A program made the position numbers and the translations under genes. Of a stretch of DNA of 27,637 bases, positions 2,965-18,661 are shown in pieces. The DNA is taken from positions 1 through 27,637 of the IMG/VR virus record IMGVR_UViG_3300033571_006933. The stretch is one strand, 5' to 3'. The notes beneath the pieces are model-generated. The model was not told the origin of the DNA and did no database searches. It saw only the letters and a list, made by a program, of their open reading frames with translations. Each line of letters opens with the position of its first letter. Position 1 is the first letter of the stretch. The DNA comes from a virus.

Positions 2965-4557
2965 ATGGGTTCTTATTATGTAAGAGCTAATTTTAGCCTA
3001 CGTCCTCAATATTCTATAGATTTAGATATAACTACCAGTTTTCAAACTTCTGGTGGTGTTACTGGAACAGTAGTAAATGTTGTTGCTACTGGTGTAAAGC
3101 ACACGTCAGTCAACAACGCCCCGACAAGCACAGGCTCACCAAGATCATATAACGTTCCAAATGGAAGAGTAACAAACGTAAATGGAACACTAACTCCAAC
3201 TGGAAGCGATAGTTCCTGGGCATTTACGTTTACCACTGGAGCGGTGCCCCAGTATCAACCAATTTGGAGTGGATTTAACAGATACGTTAGACATAGTGAT
3301 GCTTCTACAATCAGCGCTAGCGTTTCTGCCTCACACAGCCTTCTGGGAGATGCAACAGCAACTATAAGTAGCATTCCGCATGTACATAGAATTACATTCA
3401 ACGGAAATGGTGGAACCGCCTCTAGCTCCTCTGTAGACGCAGATAGTGGAACGTTTACCTCGCTACCAAGCGCTACCCGAAGTGGCTATAACTTCAACGG
3501 ATGGTACACAGCAGCTTCCGGCGGGACACTCGCCGGGCCGGCAGGAGACCCATATTACGTTTCAGCAACTACTACATTGTATGCTCAATGGTCAGTTGCT
3601 TATAGTCCAGCCTCTATAACTGATGGAGTATCTAATCAATCCTACAAAGTTGGAGATTCAGTTTATGAGTATATTGCTGCAACTAATACAAACTCCACTC
3701 TAGGTATTGGCGGGTCTAGCTTTAGCTTAAGCACCTCTATTCCTGGAATTTCTTTAACCGATTACGGGTCTTACGCTGAGATTACGGGAGTAGTTGGAGC
3801 TACTTCTACCAGTAACTATTCAGTTTCAGTTACTGCCTTAGGCCCAGGTGGAAATGCAAGCAGCACTGGCACCTGGTCTATTAGTCAAGCCTTACCGTCA
3901 TGGACAGATACAACCTTATCGAGTGGAAGAAAAGGAGTTTCTTATAGCTCTACCTTCACTGCAGCCAGGACTACATCTTGGAGCATATCGGGAGTGCCAC
4001 CGGGCCTAAGCGCTTCTGGAACAACTGGAACTACAGTAACAATTAGCGGAACTCCAACTGGATTTGGTAGCTACGCAATTACTGCTACCCCAAGAAATTC
4101 AGACAATGTTGCTGGCGATACGCAAATAATTTCTTTTAATATTTTGGATTCATCTTTGTCATGGGCAGACCAAATATTAGCAACAAGTTTAGTTACTCAG
4201 GGAGTGTCGTACTCGGACGGGGTTTCCGTATCGGCCGGTCCTACAGTAACTTACTCGCTTTTTAGCGGTTCCTTACCACCAGGACTATCTTTAAATTCAT
4301 CAACTGGAACAATAACAGGTACCCCCACAACGCCAGGAACTTATAATTTTGCAGTTAGAGCAACAAATGGGTCAAATGAAACCATCAATACTAACACTTT
4401 AACAATAACTGTCGAAGCGGGTGGAGGATACGCAAAAATTTGGAATGGCTCCGCATGGGTAGATGGAACTGCCTATGTTAGACAGTCAGGCCAATGGGTA
4501 GAAGGAATTATAAAACTTAGGAATGGTGGAACCTGGGGAGATAGTTTTTCTAACTAG
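2965..4557 (+). CDS. Multi-domain tail adhesin: InlB-B-type repeat plus putative Ig domains
   Basis: A 530-residue protein, probably exposed on the virion. Residues 1-140 are Ser/Thr-rich beta-like sequence. About 141-211 matches the Listeria-Bacteroides (InlB B-repeat, Flg_new-like) pattern: ITFNGNGGT, then SATRSGYNFNGWYTAASGG, ending in TTTLYAQWS. Three repeats then resemble putative Ig (He_PIG-type) domains: about 212-305 (weak), 310-395 (VPPGLSAS...TISGTPTGFGSYAITA) and 398-484 (LPPGLSLNSSTGTITGTPTTPGTYNFAVRA). The final 45 residues have Trp-centred repeats (IWNGSAWVDG, QSGQWVEG). Such Ig-like modules bind surface carbohydrates in phage virions. The last 8 bases overlap convergently with the next minus-strand gene. 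The preceding AGGTAGGG is a modest ribosome site. Confidence 0.8.
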   Translation: MGSYYVRANFSLRPQYSIDLDITTSFQTSGGVTGTVVNVVATGVKHTSVNNAPTSTGSPRSYNVPNGRVTNVNGTLTPTGSDSSWAFTFTTGAVPQYQPIWSGFNRYVRHSDASTISASVSASHSLLGDATATISSIPHVHRITFNGNGGTASSSSVDADSGTFTSLPSATRSGYNFNGWYTAASGGTLAGPAGDPYYVSATTTLYAQWSVAYSPASITDGVSNQSYKVGDSVYEYIAATNTNSTLGIGGSSFSLSTSIPGISLTDYGSYAEITGVVGATSTSNYSVSVTALGPGGNASSTGTWSISQALPSWTDTTLSSGRKGVSYSSTFTAARTTSWSISGVPPGLSASGTTGTTVTISGTPTGFGSYAITATPRNSDNVAGDTQIISFNILDSSLSWADQILATSLVTQGVSYSDGVSVSAGPTVTYSLFSGSLPPGLSLNSSTGTITGTPTTPGTYNFAVRATNGSNETINTNTLTITVEAGGGYAKIWNGSAWVDGTAYVRQSGQWVEGIIKLRNGGTWGDSFSN

Positions 4558-4900
4558 CTTTTTTTCTTGATTTTCTAATAATTGGTTTTGAAAGTGGGGC
4601 AATATCAGTATTAGCAGTTTGAATTCCCATAGTAATATCTTTGATAAATTCTATTTCAGTTGAAACTTTAACAACGTGCTTTTCAATATTACTTACTCTA
4701 TCCGCCAGGGAACTGCCGCCATTTTCCCAAAGCTGATATTCTACTCTTTCTAGTCTTTCTGAGACAGTTCTTCCCTCTTTATCGAGACCAACTGCCCCAT
4801 CTATTCTTTTGGCAATTCTATATATTGCAGTTAGAGAGCCGATTAAAACACCAAACGCCGTTATTGTTGCGCTAATGGCTAGTAGTAGTTCAGAAGTCAT
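4550..4900 (-). CDS. Small membrane-anchored coiled-coil protein, holin-like candidate
   Basis: A 116-residue protein on the strand opposite its neighbours. Residues 4-28 (LLLAISATITAFGVLIGSLTAIYRI) form one clear membrane helix. A basic turn (AKRI) follows, then a predicted amphipathic coiled coil (about 45-95, with VSERLERVEYQL, ADRVSNIEKHVVKVSTEIEFI). The C-terminus is a basic tail (IIRKSRKKAS). One N-terminal helix, coiled coil and basic tail resemble actinophage DUF2746-type proteins and single-span holins or spanin-like partners; the function is not settled. No endolysin lies in this window. It is transcribed away from a divergent region that contains a TACAAT box 45 nt upstream of its ATG. 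Confidence 0.6.
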   Translation of the reverse strand: MTSELLLAISATITAFGVLIGSLTAIYRIAKRIDGAVGLDKEGRTVSERLERVEYQLWENGGSSLADRVSNIEKHVVKVSTEIEFIKDITMGIQTANTDIAPLSKPIIRKSRKKAS

Positions 4901-4944
4901 GTATACTGGTCCTAGGAGAGGAAGTAATTAGATTTGCTTCATCT

Positions 4945-4963
4945 ATTGTAACCTAATAAGGTT
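4945..4963 (-). promoter_or_regulatory. Possible minus-strand minus-10 abutting a palindromic operator
   Basis: On the minus strand TACAAT (4950-4945, 5 of 6 to TATAAT) lies about 45 nt upstream of the ATG at 4900. Immediately upstream, sharing one base with it, is the inverted repeat AACCT-AATA-AGGTT (4950-4963). No good minus-35 was found at 16-18 nt. A palindrome abutting a minus-10 would suit a regulator. On the plus strand the same palindrome is followed by TTTTT-C, so it could instead act as a weak terminator. Confidence 0.25.
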
Positions 4964-4993
4964 TTTCTTATTTAGGCAGTATGGCTCATTAAA

Positions 4994-5023
4994 TTGACAC
5001 TTGTCTAAATTTTTAAAAATATT
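4994..5023 (+). promoter_or_regulatory. Candidate promoter for the primase operon
   Basis: TTGACA (4994-4999) is a perfect minus-35. AATATT at 5018-5023 (4 of 6 to TATAAT) gives an 18-nt spacer. Transcription would start near 5030, giving a leader of about 24 nt to the GTG at 5054 or about 80 nt to the GTG at 5111. The flanking DNA is A/T-rich. The perfect minus-35 is the main support; the minus-10 is weak. Confidence 0.4.
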
Positions 5024-5035
5024 TTGAATTTTTAG

Positions 5036-5054
5036 CCCTATTTTTGTTTTAGGG
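5036..5054 (+). promoter_or_regulatory. Stem-loop at the first possible primase start codon
   Basis: CCCTA (5036-5040) and TAGGG (5050-5054) are exact complements around a 9-nt T-rich loop. The second arm includes the G of the GTG at 5054. A 5-bp stem is weak alone. No ribosome-binding sequence sits upstream of 5054, whereas GAAAGAAG lies 6 nt before the in-frame GTG at 5111, so the hairpin argues for the downstream start. Confidence 0.3.
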
Positions 5055-7792
5055 TGTATTATTTTGGAGATTTAGATGAAGTTTTTTATTGGCTTAGAAA
5101 GAAGCATATAGTGGCAGGCTGGGAGAGCGCAGAAGGAAGACTGGCTTCTGGAGCCGCCTGGTACGCAAAAAAGGGTTGGCACGTATTGCCAGTGCATGGT
5201 ATCGATAAAAATGGCATGTGTACATGTGGCAAAACCCACAAAGAATCAAAAGAAAATGCAAAGCACCCATCGTCTACCAATGGGCAAAAAGATGCCACTA
5301 CTGACCTAGCTAAAATTGAAAATTGGTGGACAGAAAATCCAGATTACAACATTGGAATTTTTGCAAAAGACTCTGGATTTTTTGTTATAGATGTTGACCC
5401 TCGCCACGGAGGTCACGAATCCTTAATTAAACTCGAAGAATTAGCTAATGGAAATTTACCAAAAACCGTAGAAGCAATTACTGGAGAGTACTCAACAAAA
5501 ACCGGCCCCATGAGAGGTAAACACCTTATTTATAGGTGCGACCCAAATGAAAAATTTATTGGGAGTTTCAAGGCTCAGGGATTAGACGGAATAGACCTCA
5601 AACACAACGGATATGTTCTTGTTGCACCGTCTAGACACTCGACAGGTCACTGCTACGAGTGGAAGCCCGGTCACGCCCCCTGGGAGATTGAAATTGCAGA
5701 GGCTCCTGAAGATCTTTTAAATGTAATAAGAGCGAGAAGCCTAAAGCGTCAAGGAAAATATAGTGGAAGCAATTATGAAACAAGCGATTGGGAATTTCTT
5801 CGTGATTTAAATTTTGGTAGCACTGGAAATAAACTTGACATAGACAAGATTCTTGAAGAGGGAATTGATGAGGGCGGAAGAGCTGTTGGCTTATACCAGT
5901 TAGCATGTGCTCTGGCTAACAAGTTTGGTACCGACACTGCCGGAAGAACTTCTGTAGAAGCAATGATGCTTAAGTTTAACGCTGAAATGGTAAGACCACC
6001 ACTAGACGTTGAAGGTAGTAACGGACTATTGATGCACACCAGGCGTGCCATCGAGTTTGTGGCAGACAATCCAGTTTGGGAAAAATGGTGGGATGGACTA
6101 AAAGACTATATTCCAGAGAACGGAATGGAGTGGGCCAAAAAAGCTCAGGAAAACTTTGTAAAGTCTCCATCCCCCTCAACATCTTTTAACTACACCTATA
6201 GTGCAGAAGTTGTTGATGAAGACTCTTTAGAGGTATATGAATCTGCAAATGCGGTAGGAGACCAAGTTGCATCATTGGCAGCTAAAGGTAGGTCAATTAA
6301 AGATATTACTTCTGGTGGAAATCTCGATTTACCAAAAGATCCGGACGCTATTAGCACCGAGGCAGGTGGAAGACCTGGAGGGCGAAGCCTAACTGATGTC
6401 GGAAATGGTAGACGACTAGTAGATTCTTTTGGTTCAACTATTCGCCACACTGATAGCGTTGGTTGGTTTGTCTGGAACGGAAATTATTGGAAACCAGACG
6501 GACAAATGACTCAAATCCGAGAAATTGCTAAATCAGTTTCTACGGTAATTGCTAGAGAAGTTGCAGAACTAAAAAGCGCTGATGACCCCCGCGGCGGCGA
6601 GCTAGTTAAATGGGCAAATTCTGCTAAATCAAATGGCAGAATAAACGCCCTTATCGAGCAAGCCACCACTGACCCAAGAATAACTATGGACCTTGAGGAG
6701 TGGGACAAAGACCCCTATTTGCTTGGTGTAAGAAATGGTGTAGTCGATTTAAGAACTGGAGCACTACAGCGCGGCGATATAGAATCTCACATCACTAGAG
6801 TTTCTCCTATTTCATATACCCAAGGCCTTACAAATGTTCGTTGGACAAACTTTTTGAATGAAGCATTCAATGGTGACCAAGAATACATAAACTGGGTACA
6901 AAAAGCAGTTGGATATACTGCCACAGGTCTTAACAATCAAGACGTAGTCTTTTTAATTTATGGCCCTCCCGGTTCTGGTAAAAACACATTTATTGAAACC
7001 ATATTCGAAGCATTAGGAAAAGCTCAGCACGCCTGGGCGCTAGATTCCAACGTTTTAGCACTTGGCGACAGAATGAGCAACACCGACGAATACCACATGG
7101 CAGAACTTCGCGGTCGTCGAATGATTTGGGTAGATGAGTTGCCGGAGAATGAGCGTATAAAAGAAAACCAAGTTAAAAAGCTGACTGGGTCCGGAACCAT
7201 TCAAGGTCGTTCTCCAGGAGAAAAGCCAATTCAGTTTACGTCTACTGGAAAGCTTTGGATATCTACTAACCACAGGCCAATTATTACCGATGATGCCATG
7301 TGGCGTCGTTTGCTTCCAGTACCCTTAACAAATAAGCCAGCTAAGCCAGACCCTGGACTCAAAAAATATCTTGCTGACCCAGACGGGGCGCTACCAGCAG
7401 TTTTAGCTTGGATTGTCGAAGGAGCGGTTAAGTATTTAGCTTCTACATTTAGCCAGCAGAACCCCCTAGAAATGTGTACAGCAGTTAGAAATGCACACGA
7501 AATCTATAGGAAGAATGAAGACAGAATTGGTGCTTTCATGGAGGAAGAGACTGTCGCCGGAGAGAGTGTAAATGTAAATACTCTATACAAGCGATATAAG
7601 ATATGGTCAGATTCCAGAGGAGAAAGACCAGTCACTCAAATTGGATTCCACAGAAAGCTTGCCGACCGAGGTCTGGAAGTTATTGGAAATGGAAACAGGG
7701 CAATTGTAAATGGAATCGCTTTAGCCCCTCACGAAATTTTCATGGGAGAACAAACTGACTTTGCCACAGCGGCAAGGTTCTACTCACCCTAG
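5054..7792 (+). CDS. Prim-pol / SF3 helicase, bifunctional primase-helicase
   Basis: A 912-residue replication protein. The N-terminal bifunctional primase/polymerase domain starts near AAWYAKKGWHVLPV (35-47). It shows CTCGK...AKHP (56-72, with some Cys of a Zn-binding insert), metal-binding DVD at 113-115 (VIDVDPRHGG), the K-T-G...GKHLIY motif ending at H157-Y160, and DLKHNGYVLVAPS (181-193). The C-terminal half is a P4/D5-type SF3 helicase: Walker A GPPGSGKN (637-644), Walker B VDE (693-695), and the STNHRP...WRRL sensor region (737-750). It synthesises primers and unwinds the fork, and pairs functionally with the DNA polymerase encoded on the other strand at 19122-20942. The longest frame starts at GTG 5054, but GTG 5111 has a better ribosome site and begins just before the conserved domain. 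Length is normal for the family. Confidence 0.92.
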   Translation: MYYFGDLDEVFYWLRKKHIVAGWESAEGRLASGAAWYAKKGWHVLPVHGIDKNGMCTCGKTHKESKENAKHPSSTNGQKDATTDLAKIENWWTENPDYNIGIFAKDSGFFVIDVDPRHGGHESLIKLEELANGNLPKTVEAITGEYSTKTGPMRGKHLIYRCDPNEKFIGSFKAQGLDGIDLKHNGYVLVAPSRHSTGHCYEWKPGHAPWEIEIAEAPEDLLNVIRARSLKRQGKYSGSNYETSDWEFLRDLNFGSTGNKLDIDKILEEGIDEGGRAVGLYQLACALANKFGTDTAGRTSVEAMMLKFNAEMVRPPLDVEGSNGLLMHTRRAIEFVADNPVWEKWWDGLKDYIPENGMEWAKKAQENFVKSPSPSTSFNYTYSAEVVDEDSLEVYESANAVGDQVASLAAKGRSIKDITSGGNLDLPKDPDAISTEAGGRPGGRSLTDVGNGRRLVDSFGSTIRHTDSVGWFVWNGNYWKPDGQMTQIREIAKSVSTVIAREVAELKSADDPRGGELVKWANSAKSNGRINALIEQATTDPRITMDLEEWDKDPYLLGVRNGVVDLRTGALQRGDIESHITRVSPISYTQGLTNVRWTNFLNEAFNGDQEYINWVQKAVGYTATGLNNQDVVFLIYGPPGSGKNTFIETIFEALGKAQHAWALDSNVLALGDRMSNTDEYHMAELRGRRMIWVDELPENERIKENQVKKLTGSGTIQGRSPGEKPIQFTSTGKLWISTNHRPIITDDAMWRRLLPVPLTNKPAKPDPGLKKYLADPDGALPAVLAWIVEGAVKYLASTFSQQNPLEMCTAVRNAHEIYRKNEDRIGAFMEEETVAGESVNVNTLYKRYKIWSDSRGERPVTQIGFHRKLADRGLEVIGNGNRAIVNGIALAPHEIFMGEQTDFATAARFYSP

Positions 7793-7815
7793 TTAGTGGT
7801 ATAGGATAGGTTATT

Positions 7816-8646
7816 ATGAAATTATATATTGCAACTCCCATGTATGGAGGAATAGCAAAAAATCCGTACACAATTAGTCTTCAAAATCTAATAGTAAAGC
7901 TATCTCAGGCCGGTCACACCATTTCTACTACAACAGTGGGAAACGAGAGCTTGATTACAAGAGCTAGAAACACTCTTGTACACAAGTTCATGAGTACCGA
8001 CTGCGAAGCGCTTCTATTCATAGATGCTGACCACGGCTGGGACGCAGATGATGTACTAAAAATGATTGAGTCTGGAAAAGATTTAATTGGCGCTATCTAC
8101 CCCATGAAAGGCATCAACTGGGAAAACGTTAGAATTGCAGCTTTAGTTGGTAAAAAAGCAGAAGAACTAGAAGCCTACTCGGGATATTTTGCCATAAATC
8201 TTTTGCCAGAAAAAGACCAGCAATTTGATGTAAACCAACCATTTAAGGTAAAAGACATTGGAACTGGCATGATGTTTGTTACTAGAAAAGTTTTTGAGGA
8301 TTTAGAGCCTCACTGTAAAAAGTATAAAAATAACAATGTAGGAAACACTGGAATTGCTTTTGGTGACATGGTAACCGAGTACTTTACTACTTTTATTGAT
8401 GAAGGAGGAATTCTTTTGTCGGAAGACTATGCATTTTGCAGAATGTGGCAAAACATAGGTGGAGAAGTTTGGTCGGCTCCTTGGGTTAAAATCACCCATT
8501 CCGGAGATTATAATTTTTCAGGTCAATTTCCAAAAATGCTTGAAGCAAATAATCTTAAAAAGGCCCTCTCTGAAGCCGAAAGACTTCGAGCAGAAGCTGG
8601 ACTAAATAGTACAGAAGAAAAAGTAAAAGAACCTTCTGCAGAATGA
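7816..8646 (+). CDS. Glycosyltransferase-like protein (GT-A fold)
   Basis: A 276-residue soluble protein. It starts with a beta-strand and loop (MKLYIATPMYGG). It has a conserved-looking SLITRARNTLVHKFM segment, then the hydrophobic strand ALLFIDADHGW with a DxD-type D70-A-D72 that would bind Mn2+ and a nucleotide-sugar. Further motifs are DIGTGMMFVTRKVFE, and LSEDYAFCRMW followed by KITHSGDYNFSG, the acid and His region of many GT-A enzymes. This arrangement recurs in phage proteins annotated as glycosyltransferases, with unknown acceptors. The last 35 residues are charged and low-complexity. The gene follows the primase by 23 nt with GGATAGG upstream of its ATG, so it is in the same operon. 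Substrate is unknown. Confidence 0.7.
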   Translation: MKLYIATPMYGGIAKNPYTISLQNLIVKLSQAGHTISTTTVGNESLITRARNTLVHKFMSTDCEALLFIDADHGWDADDVLKMIESGKDLIGAIYPMKGINWENVRIAALVGKKAEELEAYSGYFAINLLPEKDQQFDVNQPFKVKDIGTGMMFVTRKVFEDLEPHCKKYKNNNVGNTGIAFGDMVTEYFTTFIDEGGILLSEDYAFCRMWQNIGGEVWSAPWVKITHSGDYNFSGQFPKMLEANNLKKALSEAERLRAEAGLNSTEEKVKEPSAE

Positions 8647-8654
8647 GAAAATAG

Positions 8655-8679
8655 AATCTAAGGGAGATACCCTTAGATT
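8655..8679 (+). promoter_or_regulatory. Perfect 10-bp stem-loop just before a ribosome site
   Basis: AATCTAAGGG (8655-8664) and CCCTTAGATT (8670-8679) pair perfectly around the 5-nt loop AGATA. It starts 8 nt after the glycosyltransferase-like gene's stop. It is followed not by a T-run but directly by GAGGT (8680-8684), the ribosome site of the mini-gene starting at TTG 8694. It is more likely an RNA processing, stability or translation-control element than an intrinsic terminator. Confidence 0.7.
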
Positions 8680-8693
8680 GAGGTAACTGAATA

Positions 8694-8810
8694 TTGGCTA
8701 ATGTAAAAGACTATATCTGTGCAGTCTGCTCAAAGCAACATGTTGTCCCTAGTTTGGCAAGAGATTGTGAGAAGAAACACCAGGTAGTAATTTTACGAAA
8801 AGCAAGCTAA
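8694..8810 (+). CDS. 38-residue Cys/His mini-protein, possible zinc-binding
   Basis: A short reading frame of 38 residues starting at TTG 8694, with an in-frame TGA immediately upstream (8688-8690) and stop TAA at 8808-8810. GAGGT (8680-8684) precedes it by 9 nt, a fair ribosome site. The protein contains C9-x2-C12, then C25-x3-H29, a CCCH-type zinc-knuckle layout (ICAVCSKQHV...RDCEKKHQV), and ends in a basic tail (LRKAS). Similar tiny zinc-ribbon proteins occur in actinophage early regions. The Cys/His spacing, ribosome site and position in a plus-strand operon support a real gene; the non-ATG start and small size keep confidence moderate. Role unknown; nucleic-acid binding is a guess. Confidence 0.6.
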   Translation: MANVKDYICAVCSKQHVVPSLARDCEKKHQVVILRKAS

Positions 8811-8811
8811 A

Positions 8812-8827
8812 ACTACATTGTTGTAGT
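8812..8827 (+). promoter_or_regulatory. 6-bp stem-loop after the mini-gene
   Basis: ACTACA (8812-8817) and TGTAGT (8822-8827) flank the loop TTGT, starting 2 nt after the mini-gene's stop. No T-run follows. It is the second of three inverted repeats in about 200 nt, which makes chance less likely than for a lone hairpin. Confidence 0.4.
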
Positions 8828-8835
8828 AACATAGT

Positions 8836-8856
8836 TTCAACCTAAGGTTGAAGGAG
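8836..8856 (+). promoter_or_regulatory. 17-bp palindrome overlapping the ribosome site of the HTH-like gene
   Basis: TTCAACCT-A-AGGTTGAA (8836-8852) is a perfect 8+1+8 palindrome. Its right arm ends in the first bases of AAGGAG (8851-8856), a strong ribosome site 6 nt before ATG 8863. As RNA it would partly pair the ribosome site; as DNA it is a fitting dimer operator. The gene just downstream encodes a possible DNA-binding protein, so autoregulation is one reading. Confidence 0.55.
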
Positions 8857-8862
8857 AGGACT

Positions 8863-9141
8863 ATGGCTCTAGCCCAACGACTAAAGACTGCTCAAGACGA
8901 GTATGTCAACAACACCACCCTATGCAAGCTCGCGTCTGTCGTATTAAGCCCAAGGCTTACGGAGGAAGACGTAGAGTATCTAACCAAAGTAATTAATACT
9001 CGTCCTGGTGACGCGGAGTATGTGCCGAACTCACGCATCTCGCAAGCGCTTCGTGACGAAGGATTTGATGTAAGCAATAGCGCAGTAGACAGGCACAAGG
9101 CAAAACGTTGCTCCTGCTACAGAAAGCCAGGAAACAAATAG
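8863..9141 (+). CDS. Small HTH-like DNA-binding protein
   Basis: A 92-residue protein. I place the start at ATG 8863, because AAGGAG (8851-8856) is ideally spaced; an in-frame TTG at 8848 would add five residues and lie inside the palindrome. Residues about 32-45 (RLTEEDVEYLTKVI) form a helix. The segment SRISQALRDEGFDVSNSAVDRHKAKRCSC looks like helix-turn-helix with a basic recognition helix (SNSAVDRHKAK) followed by CSC. Proteins with this [IL]..AL...G..VS...V.RH....C.C signature occur in actinophages and are annotated as HTH or terminase-small-subunit-like; the role here is undetermined. The stop TAG shares its G with the GTG start of the metallophosphoesterase, so the two are translationally coupled. 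Confidence 0.7.
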   Translation: MALAQRLKTAQDEYVNNTTLCKLASVVLSPRLTEEDVEYLTKVINTRPGDAEYVPNSRISQALRDEGFDVSNSAVDRHKAKRCSCYRKPGNK

Positions 9142-10337
9142 TGTCAATCTCGGAAAGACTAGAAAAACTTCGCTCACCTGGCGTGAGTGGGTCAGATACA
9201 AAAGTTATTAAGCAACCAGAAGACTGGCGTCCAAGGATGGACATTGACAGCCAGCGCGGCGGATTTGTTGTTGGCTCTCCGAGACCAGAGCACGAAATGG
9301 TAGACGCCACTACTGTATTAACCGAGTTCGGACTAAATCCAGCGGAATGGGCAGTAACTTCTCTGAGAAGAGGTAAGTGGCAAAAGTTTGATGGTGAGTG
9401 GCTAGAGTCAGTTCGAGTAAATATAGTTCCAGCAAACTATATGGCTACTGACAATCTTGACTTAGAGCAACTGGTTGATCACATTAAAAAGTGGCGTCCC
9501 GCTAAAGGAACTAAAAAGTCCACCGGCGAGGGCGCTTTTCTTATTGCGCCTAGCGACCAGCAGATTGGTAAAAAAGCCAACGGTGAAGGAACGGGTCAAT
9601 CTGTAGATAGAATTCTCGCTCTTACAGAAAAAGCTGTAAATCGGTTTTCACAAAATCTTAAAGCTGGAATAAACCCTGGAACAATATGCCTAGCATTACT
9701 AGGGGACCACGTAGAGGGAACTACAAGTCAGAATGGAAGACTCCAAGGACAAGCAGCTTCAGACCTTGGAATAACCGAGCAAACCAGAGTTGCTAGACGC
9801 CTTCTCCTTGCTCAAGTTAAAGCTTTTGCACCACTTGTAGATAAGTTAATAGTTCCTGTCATAAATGGAAACCACGATGAAGCAACTCGTCAAGTTGTTA
9901 CCGACCCAGCTGATGGTTGGAACGTAGAAATTGCTTCTGCTGTTCAAGATATCTGTGCTGAAAATTCAGAACTATCTCACGTAGAATTTAGGTACCCGAG
10001 CAGCGGACACCAGACACTAACAATAGATGTTGAGGGAACCATGATTGGAATGTTCCACGGACACCAAGCAAATCAGAATAATACACTTAGATATTTATCT
10101 CAGCAAGCTGCGGGCCAAACAGCTTTAGGGCAAGCAGACATTTGGATATCTGGACACTTTCACAACTTTAAAACTATGGATATTGGCGAGCGTTTATGGA
10201 TACAAGCTCCAACCACCGACCCAGGAAGTGAGTGGTTTAGAGATAGAGCTGGAATGAATTCTAAGCCAGGACTTCTAACATTGATGGTAGGCGGCAGTTA
10301 TGAGCCTAGAGAACACATCTGCGTTTTAGGATTGTAA
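9141..10337 (+). CDS. Calcineurin-like metallophosphoesterase
   Basis: A 398-residue protein when started at GTG 9141, which overlaps the upstream TAG by one base with CCAGGA 8 nt before it; an upstream in-frame TTG at 9108 has no ribosome site. About 120 residues of variable N-terminal region precede the catalytic domain. Phosphoesterase motifs in order are SDQQIGK (D139), LLGDHVEG (D189, E192), INGNHDE (N244-H245-D246), MFHGH (H306) and SGHFHNF (H339, H341). The first motif is DxQ instead of the classical DxH, as in many actinophage members. Such enzymes cut phosphodiesters or phosphomonoesters, often in nucleic acids, with two metal ions. Nuclease or nucleotide-processing in replication is likely but unproven. 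The next gene's ATG follows the stop with no gap. Confidence 0.88.
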   Translation: MSISERLEKLRSPGVSGSDTKVIKQPEDWRPRMDIDSQRGGFVVGSPRPEHEMVDATTVLTEFGLNPAEWAVTSLRRGKWQKFDGEWLESVRVNIVPANYMATDNLDLEQLVDHIKKWRPAKGTKKSTGEGAFLIAPSDQQIGKKANGEGTGQSVDRILALTEKAVNRFSQNLKAGINPGTICLALLGDHVEGTTSQNGRLQGQAASDLGITEQTRVARRLLLAQVKAFAPLVDKLIVPVINGNHDEATRQVVTDPADGWNVEIASAVQDICAENSELSHVEFRYPSSGHQTLTIDVEGTMIGMFHGHQANQNNTLRYLSQQAAGQTALGQADIWISGHFHNFKTMDIGERLWIQAPTTDPGSEWFRDRAGMNSKPGLLTLMVGGSYEPREHICVLGL

Positions 10338-11405
10338 ATGAAAGTAGCAGTCTATACAATTGCGCTGAACGAAGAAAAATTTGTAGAGCGATGGTATGAA
10401 AGTGCTAAAGATGCTGATTATCTTTTAATCGCTGACACCGGGAGCACAGATGGAACTCAAGAAACTGCTCAAAAACTTGGAATAAATGTAATCACTGTAG
10501 CAGTTAGACCTTGGCGATTTGACGATGCTAGGAATGCTTCTTTAGTTGCAATTCCAGAAGATATTGATTATTGCATAGCTTTGGATATGGATGAAATTTT
10601 ACTTCCAGGCTGGAAAAAAGAATTAGAAAAAGCCCTTAAAAATAATTGGACTAGGCCTAGATATAAATACACTTGGAGCTGGACTGATTCAGAGGAGACA
10701 ATTCCAGGCCTTCAATACGGCGGCGATAAGATTCATGCTAGAAAAGGCTACAGATGGACTCACCCAGTCCACGAAGTATTAAAGACCTATGGGAGTACAG
10801 AAGAGACTCAAGGGTGGGTGGGCCTAGAAATACATCACCACCCAGACAATACAAAGTCTAGGGGTCAGTACTTTCCGCTGCTGGCAATGGCAGTTGCAGA
10901 GGCACCAAATGATGATAGAAACGCCTATTATTACGCTAGAGAGCTTTACTTTAACGGGATGTATAAAGAGGCCTCCGAGCAATTTAAACGCCACCTAGGG
11001 CTTCCTACGGCCGTTTGGGGGCCAGAAAGAGCCGCATCCATGAGATACCTAGCAAAGCTCGAGCCAGACGCAAGAAAAGAGTGGCTAACCAAAGCACACC
11101 TAGAAGCACCCCACAGAAGAGAGGCCTTAGTGGAGCTTGCTCAGCACATGTACGAGACTAAAAACTGGGAGCAATGCCTGGAGTATGCTAAAAGAGCGTT
11201 AGATATCAAAGAAAAACCATTAGATTATTTATGTGAAGATTTTGCCTGGGGCTGGCTCCCATGGGACTTAGCAGCAATTTCCTCATACTATATTGGCAAT
11301 TATAACCAAGCTTTAAAGTATGGAAATACTGCGTGTCAGTTAAATCCATTTGATGAAAGACTAAAAACTAATCTTCGCTATTATTCTGTAAAAGTTTCTT
11401 CTTAA
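10338..11405 (+). CDS. GT2 glycosyltransferase with C-terminal TPR-like repeats
   Basis: A 355-residue protein starting immediately after the phosphoesterase stop. The N-terminal GT-A domain has VAVYTIALNEEKFVERW, LIADTGSTDGT (residues 30-40, the nucleotide-binding segment of family 2) and ALDMDE with D83-x-D85 for metal. RKGYRWTHPVHEVL and IHHHPDN further along match the WaaE/SunS-like GT2 branch. From about residue 195 to the end, helical repeats resemble TPRs (RNAYYYARELYFNGMYKEASEQFKRHL, WEQCLEYAKRALDI, YYIGNYNQALKYGNTACQLNP). GT2-TPR proteins glycosylate peptides or cell-surface glycans; the acceptor here is unknown. The last 38 bases overlap the 3' end of the convergent whiB-like gene. 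Confidence 0.85.
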   Translation: MKVAVYTIALNEEKFVERWYESAKDADYLLIADTGSTDGTQETAQKLGINVITVAVRPWRFDDARNASLVAIPEDIDYCIALDMDEILLPGWKKELEKALKNNWTRPRYKYTWSWTDSEETIPGLQYGGDKIHARKGYRWTHPVHEVLKTYGSTEETQGWVGLEIHHHPDNTKSRGQYFPLLAMAVAEAPNDDRNAYYYARELYFNGMYKEASEQFKRHLGLPTAVWGPERAASMRYLAKLEPDARKEWLTKAHLEAPHRREALVELAQHMYETKNWEQCLEYAKRALDIKEKPLDYLCEDFAWGWLPWDLAAISSYYIGNYNQALKYGNTACQLNPFDERLKTNLRYYSVKVSS

Positions 11406-11847
11406 TTTCTATAGAATGGTAAGCATCTACAGCATTGGCGCTAGTCCTGCTTTGCCAAGTGAAATGGCAGTCATCACATCGTACAATTTTCATTGTTGAC
11501 CACCTTCCGCCCTCCGGTCTATCTACTGTTGCAGTTTTTAGCTTGTCAGTTTTAGCTTTGCAATATGGGCACAAAGGAAATCTTTTATATCTCATTTCCT
11601 GGCCGTCCCAATTGACGGATAGGGTATTTCTTATTTGTTTGTAATCAAGACCGCCCCAAATACCCCAAAGCTGCTTGTTGTCTAGAGCCCACTTAAGGCA
11701 GTCTTTTCTAACAGGACATTGATTACATATCTTTTTTGCTTCCCACTGTTGGGACGGCTTATTGGCAAAAAAGTTATTTATCTTATTTCTATTTTCATAT
11801 TTAGAGCATTCAGCATCTTCATGCCACTCTGGAGAATCAAAGAACAT
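11368..11847 (-). CDS. whiB: WhiB-family Fe-S regulator with C-terminal zinc-ribbon extension
   Basis: A 159-residue protein. The N-terminal WhiB-like domain has four cluster cysteines C14, C41, C44 and C50 (ICNQCPVRKDC) followed by the GIWGG turn at 62-66. WhiB proteins carry an oxygen/NO-sensitive [4Fe-4S] cluster, bind the primary sigma factor and alter transcription; phage members can repress host whiB genes. Beyond the domain, which usually ends after a short basic tail, about 70 more residues contain CPYC (93-96) and CDDC (124-127), a two-knuckle zinc-ribbon layout. This extra module is unusual. WhiB is restricted to Actinobacteria and their viruses, so it gives the host range. It overlaps the upstream gene by 11 nt and is last in the minus unit. 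Confidence 0.85.
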   Translation of the reverse strand: MFFDSPEWHEDAECSKYENRNKINNFFANKPSQQWEAKKICNQCPVRKDCLKWALDNKQLWGIWGGLDYKQIRNTLSVNWDGQEMRYKRFPLCPYCKAKTDKLKTATVDRPEGGRWSTMKIVRCDDCHFTWQSRTSANAVDAYHSIEIKKKLLQNNSED

Positions 11848-12175
11848 ATGGCACCTCTACAAAAGTAGCGTCCCAGTCGTAATTAGGGTCAGATTCATTG
11901 CAATATATTGGAAATCTTTCATCCCCGTCGTCATAGTAATATCCAGCTCTAGACACCCATGCCAAATTTATTAAGTTGTAGCCATCAAATAAAGAAGTAG
12001 CTATTCCCTCCCTTTGAAGCTGTCTGGCCAAAGATTTTTTAGCAATATCATCAGATTCTAAATAAATATGCTCATTTAAATAAAAAATTATAGAGTCAGA
12101 ATGAAATTTACTGGGAAAGTCATCACCCTCCCAGATAAGCCAAATCGGGTCAGCAATTATCTTTTTACGTCTCAT
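11837..12175 (-). CDS. Hypothetical protein of 112 residues
   Basis: An unrecognised protein that starts basic (MRRKKIIADPIWLIWEGDDF). It has a helical middle (DDIAKKSLARQLQREGIA) and an aromatic, acidic C-terminal half (RAGYYYDDGDERFP, DWDATFVEVPYVL). No catalytic motif, membrane helix or Cys pair is visible. The ATG lies inside a perfect 17-bp palindrome and has no clear ribosome site: the nearest purine-rich GGAG is over 20 nt upstream. Its end overlaps the whiB-like start by 11 nt, so it is coupled to that gene. Coding is supported by the uninterrupted frame and its fit between tightly packed genes. Confidence 0.6.
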   Translation of the reverse strand: MRRKKIIADPIWLIWEGDDFPSKFHSDSIIFYLNEHIYLESDDIAKKSLARQLQREGIATSLFDGYNLINLAWVSRAGYYYDDGDERFPIYCNESDPNYDWDATFVEVPYVL

Positions 12176-12189
12176 ACATTAAATGTATG
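12173..12189 (-). promoter_or_regulatory. Perfect 17-bp palindrome over a start codon
   Basis: CATACATT-A-AATGTATG is an exact 8+1+8 palindrome. Positions 12173-12175 are the start codon (minus strand ATG) of the 112-residue gene. In the transcript the start codon would be paired. It has the same 8+1+8 geometry as the palindrome at 8836-8852, with different bases. Confidence 0.6.
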
Positions 12190-12215
12190 GGCAACTCCAG
12201 TAAACTTACCGTAAA

Positions 12216-12707
12216 TTACAAAACTGGCCAGATGTAATCATAAGACTCCGGTCGCTTGCCAGTATCCTCAGGCCACCCAAACTGTGAGTACCACTCATAG
12301 TCTTTGTTAAGTAGGGCTAATCGGTGACTTGATGCGATTTTGTCGAACAGGTCTTTATCACGCATCCATTCCGGATATCTGTGGCTTTCGGCCGTTATTC
12401 TTCCAAGCTTGACTGCCTGTATGTAGGTGGTAATTGCTTTGTCAGCTATAGTGGATTTATAGCCGCGCTTCTCCCACTCCATAACCATTTTTACTATGTA
12501 GACAAGAAGAGCGCCTTCGTGGCCCCGCCACATTTTAACGGCGGGGTGGTTGCGCCAGCCTTTAGCTGTGCGGTGATTTCCCTGTGGGTCCAGTTCCACA
12601 AGGTTCATTAGAATTTGCCAGCCCTCTAGGGCCTGCTTATTGAGCCTGGCGCGGTCAAGAACCTGTGCGGTGTCCGCCGAGCCAAATAGCGGTACAAATG
12701 TTTGCAT
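12216..12707 (-). CDS. Pyr_excise-like protein (pyrimidine-dimer DNA glycosylase family)
   Basis: A 163-residue protein. The sequence MQTFVPLFGSADTAQVLDRARLNKQALEGWQIL, then GWRNHPAVKMWRGHEGALLVYI and MEWEKRGYKST, matches the actinobacterial MSMEG_6728-type branch of the Pyr_excise family. Its best-known member is T4 endonuclease V (DenV), which removes the base and nicks at UV dimers. DenV uses a Thr exposed at the N-terminus (Thr2) as the nucleophile; here position 2 is Gln and Thr is third, so the DenV mechanism cannot be assumed. Conserved RLNKQ, H/P and RG residues remain. A repair or DNA-modification role is likely. The family is usually about 140-160 residues, so it is full length. Confidence 0.75.
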   Translation of the reverse strand: MQTFVPLFGSADTAQVLDRARLNKQALEGWQILMNLVELDPQGNHRTAKGWRNHPAVKMWRGHEGALLVYIVKMVMEWEKRGYKSTIADKAITTYIQAVKLGRITAESHRYPEWMRDKDLFDKIASSHRLALLNKDYEWYSQFGWPEDTGKRPESYDYIWPVL

Positions 12708-12728
12708 GACTACAAGCTAGCAAAGACT

Positions 12729-12992
12729 TTAAGATTTGTCAAATCCAAATGGTTTGGCTACGCTCTGTTTTAGTGACCCATAAACTACTACCTGAAAAAT
12801 GCCAGTTTCCACTGACTGTTCAATTTCTACTAGTGTTTCGGCCTCCGGATATGAAACTTTAAGCTCTAAAGAAACCTTATTTTCTACGTCTTCTTCTGGA
12901 ATACCTAGAAATCTGCCAACTTCAGCTATAGCAGTCTTTTTTGCTTTATCTAAAGTATTAGCAAGTATTTTTAGCTCAAAGCTAGTTCGCAT
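12729..12992 (-). CDS. Hypothetical protein of 87 residues
   Basis: A small protein with an alternating pattern: strand (MRTSFELKILANT), helix (LDKAKKTAIAEVGRFLGI), then paired strands (VSLELKVSYP, VEIEQSV, FQVVVYGSL). This suggests a compact alpha/beta fold of ferredoxin-like size. No catalytic motif is evident. The ATG shares its A with the last base of the upstream stop (TAATG), and AAGGAAG lies 6 nt ahead, so translation is coupled. Similar small proteins are common in actinophage minus operons; function unknown. Confidence 0.65.
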   Translation of the reverse strand: MRTSFELKILANTLDKAKKTAIAEVGRFLGIPEEDVENKVSLELKVSYPEAETLVEIEQSVETGIFQVVVYGSLKQSVAKPFGFDKS

Positions 12993-13426
12993 TACTGCTT
13001 CCTTACGCGCTTCTCTAGTTTGTATGGGGAGTAGTGGACGCCCCTAAGTTCTGGCTTTTTTCCGTCGGTGTCATTGAAGATGACGTCTCCATAACGAACT
13101 GCAACCACTGTGCCGCGGCGGCCGTTGTGTATGGGTCCGAGCTTGTCTGAGTAAGCATCTGCCTTAACTCTGACGATATCTCCAACGACGATTTGTCCTG
13201 GCTGGAGCGGGGTCCATGTGTAGTCATTTTCGTTTTCTTCTATCTTTAGTGTGTGCCCTCGGGCTATAGCCGGGAAAACAGTTAAAACTTCTTCGGTCAT
13301 GTTTTCGCTAAGTTCTGGAATCTCATTCCAAGCTTCTAGTAGACGCATAATTGCTTTACCAGAGCCAACTTTAACCTTGGCGGCCTCGAGCTGTTCGGCT
13401 ACCCAATCTCTATCAATCTGTGGCAT
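12992..13426 (-). CDS. Hypothetical protein with SH3/KOW-like beta-barrel segment
   Basis: A 144-residue protein. The first 60 residues are helical (DRDWVAEQLEAAKVKVGSG...IMRLLEAWNEI). The C-terminal half looks like a small beta-barrel of SH3/KOW type: PGQIVVGDIVRVKADAY, then HNGRRGTVVAVRYGDVIFN, then VHYSPYKLEKRV. Such barrels bind nucleic acid or protein, but the partner is unknown. The start has GAGAGGA about 11 nt upstream. It overlaps the next gene by 1 nt and lies 6 nt after the glycosyltransferase-like gene, all in one unit. Confidence 0.65.
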   Translation of the reverse strand: MPQIDRDWVAEQLEAAKVKVGSGKAIMRLLEAWNEIPELSENMTEEVLTVFPAIARGHTLKIEENENDYTWTPLQPGQIVVGDIVRVKADAYSDKLGPIHNGRRGTVVAVRYGDVIFNDTDGKKPELRGVHYSPYKLEKRVRKQ

Positions 13427-15824: not shown

Positions 15825-16759
15825 TACTCACTTCCCTTCTCTTTTTCTATTCCGTAGTATCCGTAAGGGTCGGCGACCTCAAACGCATCGCTAATTGCAG
15901 CCTCTGCAGCGCTTCCGTCATCAACCAACGGGCAAATAGCGAAGAATTGGCACTTCCACTTGCAGTCCCTAGTAGGACGTGGATATGCGTGCTTATAGTG
16001 ACTCTCGCCAGCATCTAGAGCATCGCGGACACGAAGAATGTCTTCCAGTGTTCCCTCTAGACGCTCATAAAAAGAGCGGAGTGCAAATTTATTGTGTCTA
16101 ACTTCAATCTGGTCGTAGAAAGGTGGCTTAGCATATGCACCACGCTTTACTTTGCGGAGCATTGTGAAGATACCACCCTCGGAACGCTCGCCATCTTGAT
16201 TCTGGGCTTCTTCCAAAGTCATGTATGTCAAAATCTGCTCATTCATGTGCGCCTGCGAACCAAAGTCAGCAAAAGAACCACCAACAGTTTTGAAGTCACG
16301 GAACATACGAACACCATCAATCTTTCGGCGAACACGCATGTCAATCTTTCCTTGAAGAATCACTCGGCCGTCCATCATCGGGCGCTCGATTATTTCTTCT
16401 GTAGAAATTTTTTCTAGTTCAGAGTCAATACCATTTAGCTCTACCCACTCTAGGTAGCCTTCAAGCATCACCCTCCCGAGCTCAGCCTCGGTTTCTAAAG
16501 TAGATGTGTCACGATAAGCATCATTCATCTTTTTCATATCCTCTTGAACCAGCTCAGCGTGGGCTTCAAGCAAATCCTGACCAGTTGAATAGTACCTATC
16601 TAAGGCTTCGTGAATTCTAGACCCGAGAGCTAGTGCTCCAGTAAACTCTTCTACTTTTGGTCTAAGTCGACGGTAGTAAGTAAACCACCAGCGTCGGCGG
16701 CAATCTTTGAATGTTTGAATTTCTGAATTAGAAATTCTTATTGGTCCGGGAGATGTCAT
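15824..16759 (-). CDS. Cas4/RecB-like PD-(D/E)XK nuclease with predicted Fe-S cluster
   Basis: A 311-residue protein. Nuclease motifs in order are LGSRIHEAL (H50), GKIDMR (D140), MFRDFKTVG (D155-x-K157) and QILTYM (Q175-xxx-Y179). Cysteines C20 (KDC), C266, C270 and C276 (DCKWKCQFFAICP) are arranged like those of AddB and Cas4, where four Cys hold a [4Fe-4S] cluster around the nuclease fold. A 5' to 3' or end-processing exonuclease that makes ssDNA for the annealing ATPase is the likely job. It starts inside the stop of the SNF2 gene (TAATG) with AAGGA 6 nt upstream. No CRISPR array or cas1 is near, so it is a phage recombination enzyme, not an adaptation protein. Confidence 0.9.
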   Translation of the reverse strand: MTSPGPIRISNSEIQTFKDCRRRWWFTYYRRLRPKVEEFTGALALGSRIHEALDRYYSTGQDLLEAHAELVQEDMKKMNDAYRDTSTLETEAELGRVMLEGYLEWVELNGIDSELEKISTEEIIERPMMDGRVILQGKIDMRVRRKIDGVRMFRDFKTVGGSFADFGSQAHMNEQILTYMTLEEAQNQDGERSEGGIFTMLRKVKRGAYAKPPFYDQIEVRHNKFALRSFYERLEGTLEDILRVRDALDAGESHYKHAYPRPTRDCKWKCQFFAICPLVDDGSAAEAAISDAFEVADPYGYYGIEKEKGSE

Positions 16760-18597
16760 TAAGCGTCCTTAAGAATTTTCAATAGTTGTTCTTTATCTTT
16801 CACTATTTGCTGGAAATTGTAGTCTTTAGCTCCCAGCGTGTCAATTACCTTTTCCTCTACAGTTCCTTCTGTAACGTAGTCAGTAATTACAATGGAATCG
16901 TGAATCTCAGAGCCAATCCTGTGAACTCGGTCCAAAGCCTGCTTGTAGTCAACAAGTGACCATGGTCTCTGAAGCATAACAAGTCGACGTGCCGCTGTCA
17001 AAGTAACACCAACACCGCCAGCCTGCGCAGTGAAAAGAATCCATTTGACTCGTCCAGTCTGGAAATCGTCAATTGACTGCTGTCGCTCATACTCACTTTG
17101 TGCACCCGTGATAAGTCCGTGTCTTATTCCTTCTTTAGTCATACGAGCACTCAGAAGTTCAATAAGCTGCCTAGAAACAGCACATACAGCCACCGAGTCG
17201 TCTCCGAAGTCTCCATTTGAAATGTCGTCCATTAGAGCATCGACCTTACAGGATGGGTCTGACAGCAACATCTTTTCGCCATCCTCGGTTAACTCTATTT
17301 GACCATATGCACTGGCAAACTGAATTAGTCTGCCCATCTGTACCATTGGATTAGTTGCAACAATTAAGTCACCAGAGTAGTCGCTTTCTTGCATTTCTAG
17401 GCTATCTAGCTCTCTATCTGAAACTGACTCCAACATAGCCATCATGTTATCCAGCATTTGTCGGTAAGCTTTTTCTTGCTTAGGACCCATCTCGACATCT
17501 CTTCGGTCATTAATAACCTCTGGAAGCCAGGGTAGAACTCTAGCTTTTAGCATTCTTCTCATTCGTGGATTAATACCGGCAAAGAATTCTGTTTCCATAG
17601 CGGGCTTTAATCCCAAGACCATTAATGCTCCAAAAGCATTAGGGAAAGTGTTGACATACCTGTCAATCCACTTGGTTTTACTTGGCCACTCTTTTTCGTC
17701 TAGCCAGTGAAGGATGGGCCATAGGTCTACAACATTATTTGCAATAGGAGTTCCTGTAAGGGCAAATCTAAATTCAGCCTGACCAGAGGCAGCCCACAGC
17801 GCTCGGGTCTGTTTTGATTTAGGATCTTTAGAGCGGTGAATTTCATCAGCAATAACTGATTTAAAATTAATCATGTTTAGTTCCCGAGTGTGAACCTCAC
17901 ATCTCGCTGGAGTTATTTTAGAATCGTGACCGCCGCATTCTGTGCATCGAGCTAGAGCAATAGAGCCATAAGACACAAGCTTTGAGTGAGTTCTTAGCGA
18001 TTCCCAGTTAACAACATAAACCTGGGCTTCGTGGTCGAAGGCTTTTCTTCTTTGAGTAGCAGAGCCTTTAATAATTTGTACATCAATTCCAGGCCACCAT
18101 TTATCGAACTCTCGTTCCCAGTTAGTTTTTAGGGTGTTAGGGCAAACAACTAGCAGAGGAAAAATATCCTCTCCGTTCTCGTAAAGTTTTTTTAATCCTC
18201 GGATAGCCTGAGCAGTTTTGCCAAGCCCGGGCTCATCAGCTAGTAGTCCCTTTCTAGCGGCCACAATCCACTCAACACCAGCTCTTTGGTGGGGGAAAAG
18301 GTCTTGGTCGCCATCCTCCATTGCCTCAATTTCTCGTAGAACATTGCAGGGGTCAATTCTTAAGGCTTTTTCGTTTTTTGCCCATTCGGCTAATTTTGGT
18401 CCAATTTCTAGTTGCTGCCCAAACGTTGACCTAAGCGACAGGCAACCAGTCCATGAAACCGGAATTCTCCAAACATTCTTGTCAGAATCCCATCTGGAAC
18501 CTGGTAGGGCTCGGCAAACTTCTTTTAAACGCCACTCAGCGTTAATAATTATGTGGTCGTTATCGAGTTCTACATAAACACCCAAATTGGGCTCCAT
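16759..18597 (-). CDS. SNF2-type DNA helicase/translocase with zinc-finger insert
   Basis: A 612-residue SF2 ATPase. N-terminal residues 1-60 (RWDSDKNVWRIPVSWTG) resemble the HARP-type segment of annealing helicases such as SMARCAL1. Then come FPHQRAGVEW, DEPGLGKT (121-128, motif I), DEIH (251-254, motif II), LTGTPIANN (motif III) and, in the C-terminal lobe, FTAQAGGVGVTLTAARRLVM and DRVHRIGS (motifs V-VI). Between motifs Ia and II sit C218-x2-C221 and C233-x2-H236, a CCCH zinc-finger candidate. SNF2-HARP proteins reanneal or remodel forks, matching the neighbouring nuclease, ATPase and polymerase. The start at ATG 18597 has a weak ribosome site and follows a 64-bp gap with a promoter-like box. 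Confidence 0.92.
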   Translation of the reverse strand: MEPNLGVYVELDNDHIIINAEWRLKEVCRALPGSRWDSDKNVWRIPVSWTGCLSLRSTFGQQLEIGPKLAEWAKNEKALRIDPCNVLREIEAMEDGDQDLFPHQRAGVEWIVAARKGLLADEPGLGKTAQAIRGLKKLYENGEDIFPLLVVCPNTLKTNWEREFDKWWPGIDVQIIKGSATQRRKAFDHEAQVYVVNWESLRTHSKLVSYGSIALARCTECGGHDSKITPARCEVHTRELNMINFKSVIADEIHRSKDPKSKQTRALWAASGQAEFRFALTGTPIANNVVDLWPILHWLDEKEWPSKTKWIDRYVNTFPNAFGALMVLGLKPAMETEFFAGINPRMRRMLKARVLPWLPEVINDRRDVEMGPKQEKAYRQMLDNMMAMLESVSDRELDSLEMQESDYSGDLIVATNPMVQMGRLIQFASAYGQIELTEDGEKMLLSDPSCKVDALMDDISNGDFGDDSVAVCAVSRQLIELLSARMTKEGIRHGLITGAQSEYERQQSIDDFQTGRVKWILFTAQAGGVGVTLTAARRLVMLQRPWSLVDYKQALDRVHRIGSEIHDSIVITDYVTEGTVEEKVIDTLGAKDYNFQQIVKDKEQLLKILKDA

Positions 18598-18661
18598 CCG
18601 TCATTCTGTCTATTTATATTATCACAAAAAAATTACGCTTGCACGTTATTTTTGATAATAA
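18598..18661 (-). promoter_or_regulatory. AT-rich gap with possible internal promoter
   Basis: In the 64 bp between the RuvC-like and SNF2 genes, the minus strand reads TGTGATAAT (18626-18618), an extended minus-10, about 21 nt before the SNF2 ATG. No convincing minus-35 sits at 16-18 nt. The inverted repeat GTTATT/AATAAC (18645-18662) covers the end of the RuvC-like stop codon. It is one of the few gaps in the replication unit, so extra control here is plausible but weakly supported. Confidence 0.3.

Follow-up and report, generated by a model that had tools for sequence, protein, structure and literature searches.

Three inverted repeats and a short reading frame crowd the junction between a glycosyltransferase-like gene and an HTH-like gene in an uncultured phage, which raises the question of whether these elements constitute one dedicated control cassette, as the initial annotation had proposed, or whether they belong to separate units. 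We addressed this question in the window, by which we mean the whole stretch of DNA analysed, an IMG/VR virus record of 27,637 bases. The window encodes a prim-pol/D5 primase, a WhiB-like protein, an MRE11-like metallophosphatase, and tail genes; it yielded no match in Rfam and no tRNA. WhiB is a marker of actinobacterial phages (PMC10202952), and homologues of the mini-gene described below are found in actinobacterial genomes (e.g., Xylanimicrobium, Kitasatospora, and Streptomyces). To judge by these genes, the host of this uncultured phage is presumably an actinobacterium.

The three repeats were present where they had been placed, with exact arms (10 bp, 6 bp, and a palindrome of 8 + 1 + 8 bp). 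Judged by sequence alone they are weakly unusual: the window contains 11 perfect inverted repeats with arms of at least 8 bp versus 4.7 expected and one with 10-bp arms versus 0.4 expected, and such a close repeat pair occurs in 5% of Markov sequences. Because these statistics are weak, we brought in relatives, which were collected by searches with the MRE11-like protein (80 loci), with the glycosyltransferase-like protein (21 loci), and with an alignment of the mini-protein (59 loci). The features of the junction are collected in Table 1.

Table 1. Features of the junction upstream of the HTH-like gene, in window coordinates.
Feature	Position	Strand	Description
TGAGAAAAT, predicted extended -10 of the mini-gene promoter	8644-8652	+	Its TGA doubles as the stop codon of the upstream gene
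Stem 1, hairpin	8655-8679	+	Arms 8655-8664/8670-8679, 10 bp, 5-nt loop
Core of stem 1, TAAGGG/CCCTTA	8659-8664/8670-8675	+	Begins at the predicted transcription start (about 8659)
GAGGT, Shine-Dalgarno of the mini-gene	8680-8684	+	9 nt 5' of TTG
Mini-gene	8694-8810	+	38 aa, TTG start, single C-x2-C-x12-C-x3-H zinc finger
GCAAGCTAA, -35 position of the HTH-gene promoter	8802-8810	+	Final codons plus stop codon of the mini-gene
Stem 2, chance inverted repeat	8812-8827	+	Arms 8812-8817/8822-8827, 6 bp, 4-nt loop
TGTAGTAACAT, predicted -10 region of the HTH-like/MRE11 operon	8822-8832	+	TAnnAT hexamer 8827-8832
Repeat 3, operator-like 17-bp palindrome	8836-8852	+	Arms 8836-8843/8845-8852, 8 bp about one base
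AAGGAG, Shine-Dalgarno of the HTH-like gene	8851-8856	+	Overlaps the end of repeat 3
HTH-like gene	8863-9141	+	92 aa, first gene of the HTH/MRE11 unit

The TTG-started mini-gene called by the initial annotation proved to be conserved. Its frame is unbroken in 11 relatives with the same arrangement (glycosyltransferase-like gene, mini-gene, HTH-like gene), and two loci (L092 and L096) carry a diverged copy. The start codon is GTG instead of TTG in L108, L109, L092, and L096, a swap that confirms the start site, and GAGGTAAC at the Shine-Dalgarno is unchanged in 12 of 12 aligned leaders. Pooled pN/pS was 0.225, and in pairwise comparisons synonymous change far exceeded amino-acid change (dN of 0.01 to 0.21 versus dS of 0.14 to 1.67). 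We conclude from these alignments that the mini-gene is a real gene under purifying selection with a non-ATG start; gene callers would pass over a 38-residue frame with a TTG start, yet this one is genuine and selected.

Its product resembles a zinc finger. Among 34 members, C9, C12, and C25 are invariant and H29 is nearly so (the His is replaced in L143), and the core signature is VPSLAR[DE]CE. An AlphaFold model (mean pLDDT 78) consists of a beta hairpin and a helix whose closest solved folds are C2H2 fingers, all matched with E values above 1 owing to the shortness of the protein; no curated Pfam entry matched the mini-protein above its cut-off. The four ligands, the C-x2-C-x12 spacing, and the predicted fold are those of a beta-beta-alpha zinc finger, with moderate support for the fold. 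The mini-protein shares the C-x2-C-x12-x-x3-H spacing and the beta-beta-alpha model with a classical C2H2 finger but differs in its third ligand, which is Cys, in standing alone at 30-40 aa, and in its strong VPSLAR[DE]CE signature. The family is present in about 60 viral contigs and widespread among uncultured actinophages, and it gave no match in 50,697 cultured or deposited phage records, making it a small zinc-finger family common in uncultured actinobacterial phages and not found among deposited ones. In L115-L117, L122, and about 45 more viral contigs, the VPSLAR[DE]CE mini-genes often start at, or overlapping, the preceding stop codon.

Upstream of the mini-gene lies a conserved box of extended -10 form. 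The form TGnnAnAAT is kept in 16 loci, 36-44 nt 5' of the TTG or GTG start; four of the 16 are other gene contexts with a different upstream gene and divergent flanks (TGAGATAAT, TGTCATAAT). Where the mini-gene is found in other contexts (L115, L116, L117, and L122), the -10-like box comes along. The background chance of a match of this type in a 9-position slot is about 0.002, for a pattern that was picked after the sequences had been seen. The related string TGRGAAAATAG has one or two copies per whole relative contig, and its backward control gave zero. We take the TGnnAnAAT box as a putative promoter of the mini-gene's own, with transcription predicted to start near 8659, 7 nt past the box. 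A sequence likewise of extended -10 form, TGTGATAAT, lies elsewhere in the window (18618-18626, minus strand), after a T-run and about 21 nt 5' of a helicase-like ORF (16759-18597, minus strand).

Stem 1 sits between this box and the start codon, and GAGGT begins on the base after the stem, just as had been described. In its 10-bp form it has a folding energy of -13.6 kcal/mol, equalled by 1 of 200 shuffles. In six close sequences, whose alignment was made gap-free by taking out one bulged A of L105, 95% of cells are paired versus at most 60% with a slid partner, and two pairs show changes on both sides. The divergent group has a shorter inner stem, AGGGA/UCCCU, with a compensatory GC to AU change in L110 and a second double change that rests on an uncertain alignment of L115. 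A covariation shuffle control (33/500 and 47/500) was only suggestive, the sequences being few. A hairpin in the interval from predicted start to Shine-Dalgarno had a shuffle p of 0.003-0.07 in 12 of 15 leaders; L092 and L096 have a different 5-bp hairpin, CTAGG/CCTAG, in the same place and L122 has yet another sequence there, and L115, L116, and L117 have the TGnnAnAAT box and no clear hairpin. Several different hairpin sequences coincide with the predicted start site of the mini-gene. L003 has G-U pairs, and L105, L109, and L113 have one-sided bulges; such features fit RNA better than a DNA site. Searching the exact leader pattern in all viral contigs returned three known relatives only; a match to GAAAATAGTTAC in L061 was set aside as a coincidence, lying within a coding region. 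In these alignments stem 1 is a conserved structure with compensatory changes, and a 5' leader hairpin is its best reading.

In the window group, the outermost four base pairs of stem 1 fall 5' of the predicted start, yet conservation of pairs 2-4 is good; this would call for transcription beginning further 5' or for RNA reading through from the preceding gene. We accordingly weighed the alternative that a single long message covers the primase, the glycosyltransferase-like gene, and the mini-gene and that stem 1 is a hairpin between its cistrons, acting in RNA processing or 3'-end protection. The stem begins just 9 nt past the upstream stop codon; the window group forms all 10 bp of the stem, those 5' of the predicted start included, with partial compensation; and relatives without the mini-gene have other hairpins in the same place (e.g., L009 and L013). 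However, the TGnnAnAAT box keeps its form and its spacing from the start codon under a different upstream gene (L115-L117 and L122), and it predicts a start site at which the hairpin core is located. We consider a hairpin within a long message possible but doubtful, and we continue with stem 1 as the leader hairpin of a message that would begin at the mini-gene's own promoter.

Stem 2 did not survive the comparison with relatives. Its conservation is limited to the right arm (TGTAGT), which is part of a TGTAGTAnnAT box upstream of the HTH-like gene; the left arm is gone and TGTAGTA is kept in L003, L006, L007, L008, L012, L014, L016, L022, L023, L024, and L026. As a conserved hairpin it was rejected, since the left arm is lost in most relatives and a 6-bp stem is expected by chance. 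The box itself, with at most one substitution, is conserved in 35 distinct upstream sequences; TGTAGTA is absent from L015, and more distant loci have other TAnnAT boxes in its place. The exact 12-mer TGTAGTAnCATA has one copy each in 13 of 18 whole relative contigs (the backward control gave one match in all), and being single-copy, TGTAGTA was dismissed as a repeated phage promoter. In many loci with differing upstream ORFs, a GCTAGCTAA-like sequence with an A-rich stretch before it lies 25 nt 5' of the -10 hexamer; this suggests that the -35 region of the HTH-gene promoter overlaps the preceding stop codon. The TGTAGTAnnAT box is, in our reading, the putative -10 of that promoter, with a start predicted at about 8839. 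The two predicted promoters supply likely boxes for a group of freshwater-type actinophages that lack transcript maps. The HTH-like gene that follows precedes the MRE11-like gene in nearly all relatives; its protein has the conserved stretch LREEGYDIS.SAVDRHRR..C.C and an all-helical model, for which a fold search returned no significant match.

Repeat 3 lies across the start site predicted for the HTH-gene message and extends to the Shine-Dalgarno, running into AAGGAG as the initial annotation had noted. The dyad has a p of 0.002-0.010 in the window, L002, L003, and L006, and between the window and L003/L006 there is a T-A to A-T change on both sides. Its core, AACCnnnGGTT, occurs in 7 of 35 promoter regions versus 0.01 expected, in sequences that are related to one another, and also in L092 and L096, giving 9 of 37 sequences in total. 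Six relatives with the same promoter (L004, L005, L012, L014, L023, and L024) have no repeat 3. The core lies 5 nt nearer to the -10 in L018, L020, and L022 than in the window, and this shift (window versus L018) fits a DNA operator better than a fixed RNA hairpin. A DNA operator is the better reading also in view of the transcript, which would retain almost no hairpin if it began at 8839. Repeat 3 appears, from these comparisons, to be an operator-like dyad in part of the phage family, and the HTH-like protein is perhaps its binder, by position only. As a dispersed operator, AACCTAAGGTT was rejected, there being no second copy in the window; AACCTnAGGTT and CAACCnnnGGTTG, checked in nine relative contigs, gave one extra copy, in G009. 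In more distant relatives (L031-L076), the palindrome gives way to repeats of an AATGACA/GACA motif, which stand between the -10 box and the Shine-Dalgarno and are possibly a different operator.

Stem 1 and repeat 3 each directly adjoin a Shine-Dalgarno, as would be expected if either were a translational operator through which the mini-protein or the HTH-like protein blocked the ribosome-binding site. An outer helix in group B, AGUUAC/GUAACU, would pair into the Shine-Dalgarno too, and in L074 (3680-3717) a 10-bp stem of -12.8 kcal/mol, a candidate translation-blocking hairpin, covers the Shine-Dalgarno of the HTH-like gene with its right arm. The group B helix, however, never varies, so that it gains no support from covariation, and it is absent in the window group; the leader is missing from most of the distant mini-gene homologues; and an HTH-gene message from the predicted start keeps almost no hairpin. 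We regard translational blocking as unlikely, and the distant homologues without a hairpin leader also speak against the mini-protein as a dedicated binder of stem 1, a role suggested for it earlier. Quite unlikely is the reading in which the mini-gene alone is real and all three repeats are chance, with which the weak sequence-only statistics and stem 2 agree; the compensatory changes and slide controls of stem 1 argue against it, as does the count of AACCnnnGGTT (7/35 versus 0.01 expected), though these sequences are related. We think it very improbable that the mini zinc-finger protein and/or the HTH-like protein bind the CTAAGG-containing repeats 1 and 3, with the operator co-evolving with the protein; if true, this would link two adjacent promoters, those of the replication genes and of the HTH/MRE11 operon, in a feedback switch.

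The initial annotation had also stated that none of the repeats has a T-run, and this was correct for the + strand of all three. Stem 1 is followed on that strand by GAGGTAACTG, without the T-run that an intrinsic terminator has on the gene strand, and there is no + strand terminator-like site after the mini-gene. On the minus strand, where alone it is T-rich, stem 1 runs into CTATTTTCTC and scores terminator-like. That stem 1 is an intrinsic terminator of antisense transcription seems to us extremely improbable: its 10-bp stem followed by CTATTTTCTC is the best minus-strand terminator-like site in 4000-13000, but no gene lies upstream of it on that strand for about 2.7 kb, and its T-rich tract is the TGnnAnAAT box, which is also kept without a hairpin (L115).

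Rearrangements bear on whether leader hairpin and operator act together. Where the primase module is rearranged or inverted (L008/L115 and L026/L116), the mini-gene moves with the module, and the TGTAGTAnnAT promoter and the position of repeat 3 stay with the HTH-like gene; the mini-gene and the HTH promoter separate upon rearrangement, and therefore stem 1 and repeat 3 belong to different predicted transcription units. In relatives without the mini-gene (L009-L011, L013, and L017), the upstream gene is followed directly by the HTH promoter. Across L008-L081 the HTH/MRE11 unit is fixed and the primase module beside it stands in either orientation; the breakpoint falls immediately 5' of TGTAGTAnnAT. 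A single three-repeat cassette does not fit these data, stem 2 being a by-product of the promoter. What remains of the proposed regulatory role is a conserved stem 1 at the mini-gene's ribosome-binding site and an operator-like repeat 3 before the HTH-like gene. When the locus was compared with its relatives for retained stems, an intact frame, and covariation, as the initial annotation had advised, the mini-gene and stem 1 stood, stem 2 failed, and repeat 3 was upheld in a subset only.

We propose, at about even confidence, that the junction consists of two small back-to-back transcription units with a leader hairpin and an operator, and an accidental stem 2. The first unit would consist of an accessory mini-gene, read from an extended -10 promoter of its own (8644-8652), whose transcript would carry stem 1 at or very near its 5' end, then the GAGGT Shine-Dalgarno and the TTG start. 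Stem 1 would most likely protect this short message from 5'-end-dependent decay and keep the adjoining ribosome-binding site clear of other pairing. The second unit would be the HTH-like/MRE11 operon, with its own promoter, TGTAGTAACAT, and a -35 region in the last codons of the mini-gene. Repeat 3, over the start of this unit, would in this phage branch be a DNA operator to which a dimeric regulator binds (perhaps the HTH-like protein), and stem 2 would be an accident of promoter sequence.

Leader hairpins and palindromes at promoters are ordinary phage gene control, and each part of the proposed arrangement has known counterparts. Morons are phage accessory genes transcribed independently of their neighbours (usage as in PMC6469090). 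The mini-gene is like them in being one small gene with a predicted promoter of its own, found in other contexts in relatives and present or absent at an otherwise conserved junction (11 relatives with it; L009-L011, L013, and L017 without); unlike them, it has no terminator of its own, and the next promoter follows instead. As cited in PMC7509114, Emory et al. 1992 describe ompA-type 5'-terminal stem-loops that stabilise bacterial mRNA. Stem 1 would similarly be a short hairpin at a predicted 5' end beside a Shine-Dalgarno, its structure kept and its sequence changing, here in a phage of an uncultured actinobacterium. Should transcription begin 7 nt past the predicted -10, few or no bases 5' of the hairpin would be unpaired. 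In mycobacteriophage BPs, palindromic repressor operators lie at phage promoters (PMC4557955). Repeat 3 is likewise a short perfect palindrome at a promoter, overlapping or adjoining the start site; as in autoregulated operators, the dyad lies at the start, here a predicted one. It differs from the BPs type in having no second copy in the window and just a single further copy among nine relative contigs.

The SAS and ESAS of cluster K mycobacteriophages are inverted repeats of putative function directly 5' of translation starts, with 11-19 copies per genome and a fixed 13-bp consensus (PMC3203893, PMC12699233). The window repeats, also in an actinobacterial phage, resemble them in place only and differ in occurring once or nearly so per contig. 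The 13-bp SAS, GGGATAGGAGCCC, has 4 matches in the window at up to 3 mismatches versus 4.3 expected, none of them in the interval studied here.

Three further features of the window deserve mention. A second perfect 17-bp palindrome (CATACATT-A-AATGTATG, 12173-12189) lies over the ATG of a minus-strand ORF (11837-12175), and a pyrimidine-dimer DNA glycosylase homologue is encoded at 12216-12707 (minus strand). The WhiB-like protein (11368-11847, minus strand) extends at its C terminus into an extra part with CPYC and CDDC, resembling a zinc ribbon joined to WhiB.
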